Below, in pieces: positions 1-49,328 of a stretch of DNA of 49,328 nt. The number at the start of each line of letters is the position of its first letter. Position 1 is the stretch's first letter. This DNA is from Clostridia bacterium. GTDB taxonomy: Bacteria; Bacillota; Clostridia; Oscillospirales; CAG-272. Both the position numbers and the translations under genes were made by a program. Under the pieces are notes generated by a model. It made no database searches. It was not told where the DNA came from and was given only the letters and a program-made list of their open reading frames with translations. The stretch spans positions 1 through 49,328 of the forward strand of contig JAGBCA010000044.1 in the NCBI GenBank assembly GCA_017938205.1, read 5' to 3'.

Positions 1-21
1 CCAAATTTCTCGTTGTGCCGA

Positions 22-7840: not shown

Positions 7841-8956
7841 ATGCGTTTTCACGGAAAATTCCGCCTGATCGCCACGGCGCTTTTGGCAGCGATCCTCTTC
7901 TCCGTTTTTACACTTTTCGCTTTTTCGGAGGAGCCGATCCGCGTGAGTGCCAAGGGGGCGGCGCTCTACTCTCCGGACACAAAAAGCTTCCTTTATGAAA
8001 AAAACGGGGACGTTCGCTCGCCTATGGCCAGCACCACGAAGATCATGACCGCGCTCGTTGCGGCAGAGGCAGGAGACCTCACGGAGAGGATCCGCATCCC
8101 GAAGGAGGCCGTGGGGATCGAGGGCTCTTCTCTGTATCTGCGCGAGGGCGAAAGCTTTACCTTAGAGGAGCTTTTATACGGCTTAATGCTTCGCTCGGCT
8201 AACGATGCGGCTACTGCCATTGCTCTCACCGTGAGCGGATCGATCTCCGCCTTTGCCGAAAAAATGAACGAAAAGGCGGCATCGCTCGGCCTTAACGACA
8301 CGAATTTTGAGAATCCCCACGGGCTTGACAGCGAAAATCATTATACCACCGCAAAGGATCTTGCCCGCCTTGGCGCGGCGGCAATCGAAAACGAGACCGT
8401 GCGAACCATTGCCTCTACTTATAAAAAGATCATTGGCGAGGGAGAGAGCGCGCGGCTGATCGTGAATCACAACAAGCTTTTGCGCTCCTATGACGGTGCG
8501 ATCGGACTGAAAACCGGTTTTACCAAGAAATGCGGCAGATGCCTCGTTGGAGCGGCAGAGCGAGAGGGCGTTACGCTTGTGAGCGCGACACTCTCTGCGC
8601 CCGATGATTGGACGGATCACAGAGAGATGCTGGACTACGGATTCTCCATGCTGCGGTCCTATATCCATCTTGCGCCCGAAGAATCTACGCACAAAATTTC
8701 CGTGCTTGGCGGAAAAAACAGTACCGTTCAGGTTGCAAACAAAGAGGGCTTTTCGCTTGTTGAACGCGCAGGGCTTGCCGACGTTTCGATGCGCGTTTGC
8801 CTCAACCCCTATGCGACCGCGCCGATCCGAAAGGGCGACGTGCTCGGTCAGCTGCTCTTTATCCGTAACGGAGAGGTTCTCGGCACGATTCCTCTGCTTG
8901 CAAAAACGGATATTGCGGCAATTGAAAGCAAGCGCCGCAGATTCTTTTTCTTTTGA
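7841..8956 (+). CDS. D-alanyl-D-alanine carboxypeptidase (PBP5/DacF type)
   Basis: Secreted or membrane-associated serine peptidase trimming the terminal D-Ala of peptidoglycan stem peptides. It has a signal peptide (residues 1-30), then the three penicillin-binding motifs S64-T-T-K67, S119-A-N121 and K224-T-G226, and a C-terminal beta domain (PBP5_C) from about residue 275. The length (371) is normal. The C terminus ends in Arg- and Phe-rich residues rather than a clear amphipathic anchor. In Bacillus dacF or dacB paralogues act in spore cortex formation; the neighbouring ytfJ fits that, but a vegetative role is equally possible. Confidence 0.92.
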   Translation: MRFHGKFRLIATALLAAILFSVFTLFAFSEEPIRVSAKGAALYSPDTKSFLYEKNGDVRSPMASTTKIMTALVAAEAGDLTERIRIPKEAVGIEGSSLYLREGESFTLEELLYGLMLRSANDAATAIALTVSGSISAFAEKMNEKAASLGLNDTNFENPHGLDSENHYTTAKDLARLGAAAIENETVRTIASTYKKIIGEGESARLIVNHNKLLRSYDGAIGLKTGFTKKCGRCLVGAAEREGVTLVSATLSAPDDWTDHREMLDYGFSMLRSYIHLAPEESTHKISVLGGKNSTVQVANKEGFSLVERAGLADVSMRVCLNPYATAPIRKGDVLGQLLFIRNGEVLGTIPLLAKTDIAAIESKRRRFFFF

Positions 8957-47012: not shown

Positions 47013-48172
47013 TAATTTATTGCTCGCTTAAAATATTTGACAATATCAACAAACCAACCAATATAAAATAGACCTACTGTAAAAATATACAGAATTCCCA
47101 TACCAACTTTGCCTTCTGCAAATTTGTGCACACCAAAATATCCTAAAAACAGACATAAGAAGAATAAAAGCCAATCATTTGATTTTGATGACTTTGATGT
47201 GCTTCTATGTGAAGAAGTATAGGAACTTACACTACTACTATATGATGATGTCGAAGAAGACTCTCTACGTGGCGTATGTGTAGAAGTTGTGTGAGTTGCT
47301 CTTTCCCTCGTATGCTTCACTTTGTATGGCTCATCTGTATAATAATGATACAGAAGCGTATGGCATACTTTACAAGTGTACTCATCAGCTTTATAATTAA
47401 ATTCATATTGTTTATTTAGCAGAGAACCACAATTCGGACAGTAAAACTTTTGAACTTCGCTTCTGCTTTCGCTGTGTGTTGTCTTACTTCTGCCATAGTC
47501 TGAGTAGGAATATCCACTGCTACTATGTGAATGTGAAGAAGTGTAACCGCTAGAACTATGTTCTTCTTTTTCTTCGACTACTTCGTATTCATCATCACAA
47601 TAATCGTGATGAAGTTTTGTACCGCAAGAACTACAAGTCCAATCATCATCGTATTTATTAAATCCCAATTGGTCATTTAACTCATCACCGCAGTTAGGAC
47701 ACTCAAATTTATCTTCCTCGTCCTCGTCAGAGGATTCTTCGTCTTCGACCACCGAAAAGCCATCGCAAGTATAATCACGATGAAGTTTTGCACCGCAAAA
47801 AGAACATTCGCAATCATTATCATATTCGTTAAAACCGAACTGTTTATTTAGCACACCATCACAATTAGGACATCGAATGATGTCACTTTCGTCTATGATA
47901 TCATCTTCCGTTATGCCATTAGTATGTCCGCATTCAGTACAAGTCCAAGAGCCTAAACTATCAGAAAATCCGTACTGTCTATTAAGAAGAGCATTACAAC
48001 AATCGCAACGCCATTCAACACCCTCAAATGTATCTCCATCATAAATATCATCATCCATTAAATGTTGACCACATTCTGTGCAAGTCCAAGAGCCTTTGTC
48101 GGGGTCGAAACCATATTGATCGTTCAATGTTGCTCCACAATTTGGGCAATAATATTCATCACCGTAACTCAT
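47012..48172 (-). CDS. Five-fold zinc-ribbon repeat protein with C-terminal TM2 membrane domain
   Basis: 386 residues. Five homologous zinc ribbons, each C-P-N-C or C-D-C-C, then L-N-x-Q-(Y/F/L)-x-F, then C-x-x-C after about 18 residues: CPNCGATLNDQYGF, CDCCNALLNRQYGF, CPNCDGVLNKQFGF, CPNCGDELNDQLGF, CPNCGSLLNKQYEF. Acidic linkers separate them; a Ser/Thr/Tyr-rich disordered region lies between units 4 and 5 and after unit 5. The C terminus (about residues 330-386) is a TM2 domain with two membrane helices and the motif FLGYFGVHKFAEGKVGMGIL. The ATG at 48172 has GGGAGG four bases upstream. It lies behind a structured, terminator-containing leader. I know no characterised protein of this build; it may be a metal-responsive membrane sensor or scaffold. 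Confidence 0.8.
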   Translation of the reverse strand: MSYGDEYYCPNCGATLNDQYGFDPDKGSWTCTECGQHLMDDDIYDGDTFEGVEWRCDCCNALLNRQYGFSDSLGSWTCTECGHTNGITEDDIIDESDIIRCPNCDGVLNKQFGFNEYDNDCECSFCGAKLHRDYTCDGFSVVEDEESSDEDEEDKFECPNCGDELNDQLGFNKYDDDWTCSSCGTKLHHDYCDDEYEVVEEKEEHSSSGYTSSHSHSSSGYSYSDYGRSKTTHSESRSEVQKFYCPNCGSLLNKQYEFNYKADEYTCKVCHTLLYHYYTDEPYKVKHTRERATHTTSTHTPRRESSSTSSYSSSVSSYTSSHRSTSKSSKSNDWLLFFLCLFLGYFGVHKFAEGKVGMGILYIFTVGLFYIGWFVDIVKYFKRAIN

Positions 48173-48193
48173 AAGTCCTCCCAAAGTCCTATA

Positions 48194-48227
48194 AAATCAA
48201 AAAGGTGCGCAGCCGAAACCACGCACC
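48194..48227 (-). terminator. Attenuator-type terminator in the zinc-ribbon/TM2 leader
   Basis: GGTGCG pairs with CGCACC around TGGTTTCGGCTG, followed by TTTTTGATTTT on the minus strand. It lies between the promoter and the gene, 22 bases before the start codon. Confidence 0.75.
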
Positions 48228-48250
48228 GAAAAACGCAGTTTCGCTTCTGT

Positions 48251-48343
48251 TGCGACACAGTTCACGTCCGAAGATATGACAAGCAAAGCCTACGTTTTTA
48301 CCAAGCATAGACTTCGGACGAAAAAATATTCAACTGTGTCGCA
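48251..48343 (-). ncRNA. Long hairpin leader RNA upstream of the zinc-ribbon/TM2 gene
   Basis: Two complementary segments: AACTGTGTCGCA (48332-48343) with TGCGACACAGTT (48251-48262), and CTTCGGACG (48312-48320) with CGTCCGAAG (48265-48273). They give 21 base pairs broken by an asymmetric internal loop (11 bases, A/T-rich, against 2) and an apical region of 38 bases. The predicted transcription start coincides with the outer end of the stem. With the terminator at 48194-48227 this is either a cis-regulatory leader or a roughly 145-base small RNA. Confidence 0.6.
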
Positions 48344-48348
48344 CGATT

Positions 48349-48377
48349 ATTATACCACGTTTTTATAGATATTTCAA
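48349..48377 (-). promoter_or_regulatory. Promoter of the zinc-ribbon/TM2 leader
   Basis: TTGAAA (48372-48377), 17-base spacer, TATAAT (48349-48354), minus strand. Confidence 0.85.
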
Positions 48378-48794
48378 GTAGTATTAAATAATAAAAAATA
48401 GATTTTGGCACCGTGGCGTGTGCTTGTCTTGATACAAGTCGGCTCGCTACGCTCGCCAGCTCCCTCCCGGAGGGAGCCTTTGACACAAGGACATTCTGCC
48501 CTGACTTTTTATTTGTTTTCTGCTTATCGGCAATAGCCTTTATTGAACCACGCGACTATCGCGTGGTTTTCGTTATACAACAAAAGGCAAGGCCTATCGG
48601 CTTTGCCTTTTTGTTTTGCGGGAAAGCCATCACTCTGCCGAGTATAAAACTCGCCAGAGTGATACCACGGGAATTGAAGGTTCCCCACCACCGTCGCATA
48701 GTCGTCGATCGTCGGGCCATAGCCCTTCTCCGACTCCTTGCTTTGGGCGGTTTCGGCTTCGCGAAAACAGTTATCAACTGTTTTCGCTCGCCTA
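48378..48794. other. Hairpin-rich stretch without a convincing gene
   Basis: Contains GCTCCCTCC-CGGAGGGAGC-like palindrome (48459-48477), ACCACGCGA/TCGCGTGGT followed by TTTTCG (48547-48567), AAAAGGCAA/TTGCCTTTT (48582-48611) and GCGAAAACAGTT-ATC-AACTGTTTTCGC (48761-48787). A minus-strand frame (48524-48940) is open through these hairpins and ends LLLYNENHAIVAWFNKGYCR, but it has no ribosome binding site and no recognised family, so I do not call it a gene. Confidence 0.5.
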
Positions 48795-48811
48795 CCCGTC
48801 TCCCGCACCAA
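48795..48811 (+). repeat. Attachment-site candidate, second copy of the tRNA-Leu 3' end
   Basis: Identical over 17 bases to 46627-46643 including CCA. No tRNA body precedes it. It is followed at once by a near-perfect terminator-like palindrome, as expected if the original 3' flank of the tRNA was displaced by an insertion. Confidence 0.6.
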
Positions 48812-48853
48812 AAAATGACTGTAATTTTGATACAAAATTGCAGTCATTTTTTT
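48811..48853 (+). terminator. Terminator-like palindrome after the second att copy
   Basis: AAAAAATGACTG and CAGTCATTTTTTT enclose AATTTT-GATAC-AAAATT, a nearly perfect inverted repeat ending in T7. Probably the displaced terminator of the tRNA gene. Confidence 0.65.
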
Positions 48854-48855
48854 AT

Positions 48856-49050
48856 CCATTACGGAGTAATGGTATATCATCACGCAACTTGTTTGCGTGC
48901 ATATCATCAAAAAGAGCGAGAAAATCGCTCTTTTTTGCATATCATCACGCTTTAGCGTGTGTTAAAACTCCGTAATGATGATATACAATGCTCCGCATTG
49001 ATGATATCCAGCCACTTCGTGCCTGATGATATACACTTTCTGCGAAAGTG
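48856..49050. repeat. Dyad-symmetric array of seven short hairpins
   Basis: Hairpins at 48856-48872 (CCATTAC/GTAATGG), 48881-48899 (CACGCAA/TTGCGTG), 48909-48935 (AAAAAGAGCGA/TCGCTCTTTTT), 48946-48959 (CACGC/GCGTG), 48987-48999 (AATGC/GCATT), 49011-49023 (GCCAC/GTGCC, one mismatch) and 49034-49050 (CACTTTC/GAAAGTG). Linkers are ATATCATCA three times (48874, 48901, 48939), then its complement TGATGATAT three times (48976, 48999, 49024). Stem sequences differ while linkers and small loops are conserved, so this is an organised array, not a simple repeat. Confidence 0.75.
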
Positions 49051-49094
49051 ATTAAAGTTACAAGCTTTTTTTGTTTTTAGCCGTAAAATACAAA

Positions 49095-49147
49095 TCGTTC
49101 ACTTTATACCCTTTTCGTTCAATTTATGAGGTATCGTTCAATTTGTG
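49095..49147 (+). repeat. Three iteron-like direct repeats
   Basis: TCGTTCACTTTATAC, TCGTTCAATTTATGA and TCGTTCAATTTGTGT start at 49095, 49115 and 49134, spaced 20 and 19 bases. They lie 20-70 bases upstream of a promoter, on about the same helix face, and probably bind a regulator or replication/conjugation initiator. Confidence 0.6.
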
Positions 49148-49165
49148 TTTTACTGAAGAAACACA

Positions 49166-49194
49166 TTGATTTTAGTTAGATTTTGTGCTATAAT
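49166..49194 (+). promoter_or_regulatory. Promoter reading out of the right edge
   Basis: TTGATT (49166-49171), 17-base spacer, TATAAT (49189-49194). The leader after it can form GAGCTTTT/AAAAGCTC (about 49229-49281) and CTCAAA/TTTGAG hairpins. Confidence 0.75.
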
Positions 49195-49310
49195 AAACTC
49201 ACCGATAAACCTGTTACTGTTTGTCAAGAGCTTTTTGAAAAAATACAAATAAAAAAGGCGTAACAACAAAGCCGAAAAGCTCAAACAATTTTGAGTGTTG
49301 AAAAAAGGGC

Positions 49311-49328
49311 ATGACTAAAAGACCACCG
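49311..49328 (+). CDS. Start of a gene running off the window
   Basis: ATG at 49311 opens MTKRPP and stays open to the last base. AAAAAAGGG immediately precedes it, a poor but possible ribosome binding site at very short spacing. It lies about 110 bases downstream of a strong promoter. Too short to identify; the context suggests the first gene of a mobile element. Confidence 0.35.

Follow-up and report, generated by a model that had tools for sequence, protein, structure and literature searches.

The hairpin array near the right end of the window (the whole stretch of 49,328 nucleotides analysed here) was found to be one copy of a repeated and probably mobile piece of gut-bacterial DNA. Its copies form a module with structure and a fixed orientation that follows terminator-like hairpins, often where a tRNA gene ends; in the genus, many PF05635 genes are preceded by arrays that share this plan but use different linkers. 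The array is probably a cis-acting nucleic-acid module of selfish, cargo-carrying elements built around the four-helix-bundle PF05635 protein, and the best reading of these elements is that they are related to the intervening sequences (IVSs) of 23S rRNA.

In the window, the array (48854-49054) consists of seven hairpins spaced by six exact copies of one 9-mer. Its left half carries ATATCATCA at 48874-48882, 48901-48909 and 48939-48947 (left linkers 1 to 3, minus strand), followed in the right half by TGATGATAT at 48976-48984, 48999-49007 and 49024-49032 (right linkers 1 to 3, plus strand); left and right linkers are complements of each other, and the orientation flips at the midpoint of the array. 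The hairpins, all listed on the plus strand, span 48856-48872 (outer hairpin), 48881-48899 (H1), 48909-48935 (H2), 48946-48959 (H3), 48986-49000 (H4), 49009-49025 (H5) and 49034-49050 (H6). The outer hairpin, CCATTAC-GGA-GTAATGG, forms the A-end together with a preceding ATCC (48854-48872, plus strand), and H6 runs into the B-end, ..GTGATT (49034-49054). The original prediction had described the seven hairpins and the threefold linker followed by its threefold complement, and all six linkers proved exact. It had also taken the 9-mer itself as the linker, but the 9-mer takes in the closing C-A/T-G pairs of the stems and the truly unpaired linker is about 8 nt. The predicted pairing of the outermost left segment with the centre was likewise found, slightly longer than claimed: the P1 strand (48857-48867, plus strand), made up of the 5′ arm and loop of the outer hairpin, pairs over 11 bp with the P1′ strand ACTCCGTAATG at the centre (48967-48977, plus strand), in competition with the outer hairpin. 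This outer/centre stem is the main stem of both the RNA and the DNA minimum-energy folds (folding z of -6.2 and -8.0, respectively), and none of 200 shuffles folded equally well. The 9-mer was expected 0.29 times per window on both strands together and was found eight times, six of them inside the array. Ordered inverted 9-mers (two plus two) occurred in 2 of 983 200-nt slices of the window, both being the array itself, and dinucleotide shuffles of the array (n = 2000) reached at best one plus one, against three plus three in the real sequence. No Rfam family reached the cut-off over 48000-49328, and no rRNA or ribozyme family was listed there. A CRISPR-like array was considered and dropped, as the stems vary and the linkers invert; a simple tandem repeat was also considered and dropped.

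Directly before the array stands a terminator-like hairpin with a T-run (48810-48853, plus strand; arms 48810-48829 and 48833-48852), which also precedes the arrays in loci L252, L349 and L350. In front of it lies CCCGTCTCCCGCACC (48795-48809, plus strand), a 15-nt copy of a tRNA-Leu 3′ end with the same letters that end the tRNA-Leu of L433. ARAGORN recognised no tRNA at the window site, CCCGTCTCCCGCACC having no complete tRNA attached; judged by its letters, it is a displaced tRNA end. The att-like site previously proposed beside the array is this tRNA-end copy. Displaced tRNA 3′ end copies were found in the window, L252/L353, L349, L357 and L370. The idea that such copies bound the array unit found no confirmation: 21 PF05635 genes with an upstream tRNA gave no such repeat (11 nt of tRNA end) behind the gene in the available sequence. 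A second kind of unit, of roughly 200 bp, was also noticed behind tRNA terminators (window about 48613-48809; L252 about 8110-8310; L361, L366 and L369), with two in tandem behind tRNA-Pro in L349; some of these units end in a tRNA 3′ end copy.

On its other side the array is followed by a separate conserved promoter module (49058-49209, plus strand) with three TCGTTCA repeats starting at 49095, 49115 and 49134, then TTGATT-N17-TATAAT (49166-49194) and ACTCACCGATAAA. The 'iterons' of the original prediction correspond to the three repeats, which are present but belong to this promoter module; the module occurs without an array in L251, and matches covering it alone were obtained in at least 10 genus genomes. 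The start of a repeat occupies 49210-49328 (plus strand), and contigs C6, C32 and C36 of the same genome all stop inside it, ending in the common repeat shortly after ..ATAAACC; what comes after the window copy is apparently a multi-copy element. The assembled sequence of the window copy contains no protein gene, running into the promoter module and being cut off by the repeat. A gene-cassette frame was also observed, in which ACTCACCGATAAATAAGAATTTGAC (or a close form) stands before, and GTCAAATTCCAATTTATCG..GGTATCAAAATTTTGGATTACTCACAA (or close forms) after, different genes, so that swappable cargo is enclosed by an imperfect inverted repeat of about 19 bp (window 49197-49209; L251 616-1195; L253, minus strand, about 8411-8540; L350 4575-5110); the window holds only the beginning of the 5′ part. 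Searches of plasmid DNA gave no match, and searches of phage DNA gave none for the last 134 nt of the window. One phage record, L251 (MT836745.1, labelled Bacteriophage sp.), matches the right part of the region, in the promoter module only; its ORFs read like recA, rny, rimO and pgsA, by which it looks like bacterial chromosome.

Presence at this site alone would have spoken against the original interpretation, but four such sites were found in the window's own genome (84% complete), their right-hand limits lying 45 to 1080 nt from a contig end, and many more in MAGs of related gut Clostridia. An exact-pattern search of GTDB contigs returned at least 119 stretches with the array linkers. Among the matches listed, all but three were titled as Clostridia, Oscillospiraceae, Ruminococcaceae, Christensenella or similar MAGs, many of them from herbivore guts; the exceptions, by record title, are a Bacillus, an alphaproteobacterial and a Bacteroidetes record. 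The paired-linker pattern was present in at least 35 of 69 genus genomes. A scan of viral contigs gave at least 120 stretches with paired linkers, 111 of 121 clusters therein being lone pairs, and these stretches served further only as random background for the upstream-array detector described below.

A common plan was apparent across copies. Reading from the A-end, a hairpin with a T-run is followed by ATCC, the outer hairpin, the left linkers (usually three) with hairpins, and the centre, after which come the right linkers (usually three) with hairpins and then GATT, the B-end. Among 134 arrays in the fetched genome loci, 101 were mixed and 33 one-way. Outer/centre pairing was found in 80 of the 101 mixed arrays in one orientation only, with none pairing in both; the 21 lacking it were counted against the best reading. 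When only exact linkers are considered, left linkers precede right ones in every one of the 57 mixed clusters from the genome loci. The window copy shows every feature by which the family was defined, namely ordered inverted linkers, outer/centre pairing and an A-end behind a hairpin and T-run. Long one-way linker runs with hairpins and no inversion, of up to nine linkers, were observed in L148, L151, L152, L163 and L236, and these are apparently expanded half-arrays.

The two ends of the module differ in setting. Of 117 elements considered for the A-end, 11 lacked the ATCC motif and 7 lay too near an end, leaving 99. A hairpin stands directly before the A-end in 95 of these and a run of at least five T in 75, while a control position about 350 nt upstream gave four hairpin matches, counted only among elements with 420 nt upstream. 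In 22 of the 61 copies tested, the TGAT of the B-end is followed at exactly 18 nt by a hexamer resembling TATAAT (5 or 6 of 6 letters), compared with 0-3 copies at other offsets, so that the B-end TTGATT has the spacing of a -35 box. In the window copy a promoter comes only later, at 49166-49194, and not directly at the B-end. The position relative to tRNA genes was scored in 105 of 119 distinct elements, 14 being too near an end: a same-strand tRNA gene ends 29-44 nt before the array in 34, an opposite-strand one in none, and the 71 with no recognised tRNA at that place were counted against the best reading. One terminator hairpin with its array was found at both tRNA-Tyr and tRNA-Leu (L347, L348), and the window's own terminator hairpin and array recur at tRNA-Pro (L349, L350) and in the C6 copy. 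Since one and the same terminator hairpin can accompany arrays at more than one tRNA, hairpin and array may move together, and a module entering any pre-existing T-run was dropped as an explanation. Conversely, one tRNA can be followed by different things: of the 24 loci in which the end of the tRNA-Tyr gene was located, 4 (L352, L353, L357, L376) have array linkers after it, and the remaining loci, among the matches listed, have different terminators and units and downstream sequence of varying length.

Comparison of copies supports selection for structure, since whole stems have been replaced while pairing was kept. Among 66 three-plus-three elements, 430 of 462 hairpin slots (outer and H1-H6) fold with at least 4 bp, the outer hairpin folding in all 66 with 7 different arms. 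The number of different arms per slot is 7-25 (13-25 in H1-H6), and arms swapped between elements pair at 0.41-0.74. These elements were picked by the outer/centre pairing rule, which makes the P1 score of 66/66 a matter of construction and the 134-array count the fairer one. The window and C6 copies are 90% identical over 469 columns, yet have different H1 and H5 stems, each of them self-complementary. Selection for structure had been proposed from the window alone; stems in relatives keep pairing where decay by non-compensatory changes would have spoken against it. Mismatches in 255 stems comprised 19 G.T, 6 A.C and 10 others, an excess of G.T that gives only a hint of one folded strand, the events being non-independent.

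The association with PF05635 came from the sequence directly behind the arrays. At 13 places a related four-helix-bundle protein, about 115 aa at full length, is encoded there; these places were found by two sequence motifs in the first two ORFs and are a lower bound. Two of the 13 proteins were scanned against Pfam and matched PF05635 (E 7e-17 and 4e-20), and a profile of all 13 matches one solved chain, 2rld. The scarcity of the gene, at 13 places among 117 TGATGATAT elements, was counted against the best reading. Other cargo is diverse: among 59 proteins chosen from 119 candidates, no Pfam family occurred in more than two, and PADLOC found no defence family in more than two of the 59. The first ORF of at least 60 aa within 300 nt of the B-end runs in the same direction in 76 of 117 elements and in the opposite one in 22, with at least 600 nt of downstream sequence available in 90 of the 117. 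PF05635 was present in at least 58 of 69 genus genomes. In the window's genome it was found, among the matches listed, only on C30 and, below the cut-off, on C45; the window's contig carries no PF05635 gene, and the detector found no array at the C30 gene, which was also counted against the best reading.

Upstream of genus PF05635 genes the same array plan was found with other linker words (GTGATAT, GTGAAGT, ATGAATT, ATGAAAT, ATGAAGC, GTTATGA, TCGATAT and AATGATG(T)). A blind detector of ordered inverted linkers was applied to 60 PF05635 places taken in about list order (some near contig ends omitted) together with 30 given loci, of which 81 of 90 had enough upstream sequence. It fired in 46 of these 81 upstream windows (39 with at least five linkers), compared with 2 of 70 downstream windows, no shuffled sequence out of 81 and 10 of 2000 windows taken at random from viral contigs (one with at least five linkers); the 35 windows in which it found no array were counted against the best reading. 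A same-strand tRNA lies 217-375 nt upstream of 21 of the 90 genes and an opposite-strand one of none, while five have a tRNA just downstream. Furthermore, linker type and protein clade correspond. In a tree of 60 proteins (103 columns, many forks open; 38 of 98 proteins left out as having no recognised linker), 11 linker labels require 11 changes, where the minimum is 10 and the shuffled mean 42.9, and none of 200 shuffles was as low. Such a match would be expected if the protein recognised the linker, although much of it could also arise from joint descent alone. A promoter follows 8 of 26 arrays from the other linker families, against 2 when shuffled, and 6 of the 8 stand behind a tRNA; behind the 11 arrays located at the ends of rlmD or guaA, no promoter reached a score of 9.

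Outside the genus the detector fired in 4 of 36 PF05635 loci, which was counted against the best reading. A broader search of the 36 for inverted repeats, judged against shuffles, was positive in 26 but is given little weight, as its own control window passed a loose threshold in 14. In the 36 loci, which comprise phylum-level, plasmid and phage-labelled ones, complementary short flanking words outnumber those in shuffles for 21 PF05635 genes, under a loose control. In other groups (L532-L566, including cyanobacterial and spirochaete plasmids), short degenerate tandem repeats were often seen beside PF05635 genes, with complementary copies on the other side of the gene, again with a loose control. 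In L567 and L568 (Bacteriophage sp., human faeces), PF05635 genes lie behind array-like sequences, the detector firing on L568 only, and the L567 gene is also behind a tRNA-Arg. PF05635 genes with no hairpin arrays were seen directly upstream of a tRNA-Leu gene in L391, L392, L393, L395 and L412, and sequence like a tRNA-Leu 5′ half lies upstream of the PF05635 gene in L395 and L397.

The 3′ ends of guaA and rlmD are further sites of arrays with other linkers; both gene names were read from conserved C-termini. Occupied and unoccupied ends of both genes coexist in one genus, array-free sites including L478, L484 and own-genome L487 for guaA and L509, L520 and L526 for rlmD, and several protein clades share one site across many species. 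At some filled sites an inverted copy of the gene end lies between gene and array. Its pairing with the gene end was scored with no gaps allowed, on sites sorted by linker, a sorting that misfiled L477, L480 and L494 (as empty) and L490 (as filled). For rlmD (21 filled, 9 empty), own pairing averaged 11.4 of 20, compared with 8.8 at empty sites and 10.2 when swapped; at 4 of the 21 filled sites at least 17 of 20 positions pair, and none of 5000 permutations reached the observed sum. For guaA (15 filled, 14 empty), own pairing averaged 10.0 of 15, compared with 7.4 and 9.4, respectively; 5 of the 15 filled sites pair at 15 of 15 and the rest at 6-10, with 140 of 5000 permutations as good. Most filled guaA sites have no inverted gene-end copy, which is thus not a general feature. 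In L510 and L522 the element-side inverted strand fits the gene end of another species better, suggesting that the strand travels with the element.

How the module might act was considered in the light of these settings. The PF05635 protein would recognise the repeated linkers displayed between the hairpins of a folded strand, and this strand would more likely be DNA than RNA, because the copies at tRNA sites place the module between terminator and promoter. The retention of one structure both there and in a read-through setting also points to a role at the DNA level. The protein-linker complex would mark the element DNA to be inserted beside a hairpin at the 3′ end of a conserved gene, constituting the element's own input to insertion. 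Given this pointer to DNA, and as RVT_1 and Y1 are absent from most genus genomes, host or foreign enzymes are proposed to join the strands. It can be put forward with moderate confidence that the linkers are read by the protein on a folded strand and that the complex contributes to insertion beside hairpins. The array-bearing elements are probably mobile; the material analysed was mostly MAG contigs, in which no excision, transposition or target duplication was seen, and this was counted against the best reading.

Alternatively, the array could be a passive part of small units that enter the 3′ ends of tRNA and conserved genes, either with a tyrosine integrase supplied in trans or through homologous recombination between conserved flanking sequences. 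The tRNA, guaA and rlmD 3′ ends are typical island sites, and the displaced tRNA 3′ ends, the sharing of one site by several protein clades in many species and the diverse cargo would all fit such hitchhiking. The lack of a tRNA-end repeat in the available sequence behind the 21 PF05635 genes with an upstream tRNA does not, and passive carriage leaves the kept structure and the protein-matched linker unexplained, so this explanation is regarded as possible though not probable. A somewhat less likely one is that the linkers are double-stranded sites for the PF05635 protein, or for another regulator of the B-end promoter, with the hairpins as spacers. Such an operator array would account for the -35 spacing of the B-end in 22 of 61 copies, for the promoters behind other-family arrays and for a linker that tracks protein clade, but stem replacement with kept pairing and the outer/centre pairing are needless for a double-stranded operator, and the promoterless arrays at rlmD or guaA ends make up 11 of the 26.

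A structured regulatory RNA, or a protector of mRNA 3′ ends read through from the upstream gene, appears unlikely. Strong RNA folding and the 19 to 6 excess of G.T would favour it, and the promoterless rlmD and guaA copies would fall in a read-through transcript; the window's own family, however, often lies between a T-run (75 of 99) and a promoter (22 of 61), where it should be mostly untranscribed, and both contexts keep the same structure. Still more improbable is a REP/BIME-like repeat moved by a Y1 transposase, or a non-autonomous retroelement moved by a reverse transcriptase. Hairpins in two orientations placed behind terminator T-runs would suit either, and group IIC introns also insert behind terminators. 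In the genus, however, RVT_1 was found in 11 and Y1 in 18 (15 over the cut-off) of 69 genomes, as against at least 58 with PF05635 and at least 35 with TGATGATAT pairs, and the window region gave no Rfam family at cut-off. A resident element of either kind was dropped for the window's genome, profile matches being 0 for both. The likeness of PF05635 to Avd, a reverse transcriptase partner in diversity-generating retroelements, as stated in an excerpt of PMC10053308, is a further point on the side of a retroelement.

A bolder version of the preferred reading, in which a PF05635 protein acts on the array, was also entertained. In several families the strand of 15-20 nt complementary to the target gene end would be a long built-in guide, the target being chosen by base pairing; the elements would then form a homing class whose sole own protein is the four-helix bundle, with protein-specific linkers and a 15-20 nt guide to the target gene end. 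This is offered tentatively and is itself rather unlikely. As PF05635 clades go with distinct repeated DNA words and both occupied and unoccupied sites are at hand, it can be tested whether the protein reads the word and moves the element. Some repeats and cargo genes that follow tRNAs in Clostridia of the rumen and gut may also be accounted for by the arrays. The original interpretation was partly supported, being right on selection and on the association with mobile-looking units, and the recurrence that it called for was found beside tRNA 3′ ends and cargo genes; the link to a four-helix-bundle protein, the B-end -35 box, the terminator-to-promoter orientation and the co-diversification of linker and protein go beyond it.

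Searches of open-licence PMC papers turned up no account of such arrays, in agreement with the earlier statement that no named element with this plan is known, and the arrays share single features with several known systems. REP/BIME sequences and REPINs are short hairpins in both orientations, dispersed between genes, with the Y1 transposase RAYT. The array likewise has short hairpins in both orientations, but its linker is constant, its stems vary and its order is left then right; where a REP/BIME has a conserved stem and tag, H1-H6 have 13-25 different arms, and the window's genome gave 0 matches to Y1. IS200/IS605 elements have hairpin ends with guide sequences of about 4 nt. Hairpin ends are shared, and some rlmD and guaA copies have an element-side strand complementary to the flank, but that guide-like strand is 15-20 nt long, the unit has no Y1 transposase and its partner is PF05635. 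Integron attC sites are folded single-strand sites beside swappable cargo and resemble the array in both respects, whereas the array has many hairpins and a constant linker. Group IIC introns share the position directly behind terminator hairpins, but no Rfam ribozyme family was found over 48000-49328 and RVT_1 is absent from the window's genome.

The closest likeness is to the IVSs of 23S rRNA. In an excerpt of PMC4990558, PF05635 is the S23/IVP ORF of these sequences, which are described as selfish and of unclear function and origin; the '23S rRNA IVP' named in a figure legend of PMC10910872, on associations of CRISPR adaptation modules, belongs to a different context. The window copy would be a relative of IVS-type elements by family and not a member by test, because its assembled sequence contains no protein gene. 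Array elements and IVSs share the protein family, complementary arms (in the window copy, the 11-bp P1 and the complementary linker sets) and a location in or behind a stable-RNA gene. They differ in that the arrays lie outside 23S rRNA, the window copy standing behind a terminator-like hairpin and a tRNA-end copy, and in that both arms of the array are upstream of the gene, with hairpins between the repeats, a linker that varies by protein clade, cargo, and sites at tRNA, guaA and rlmD 3′ ends.
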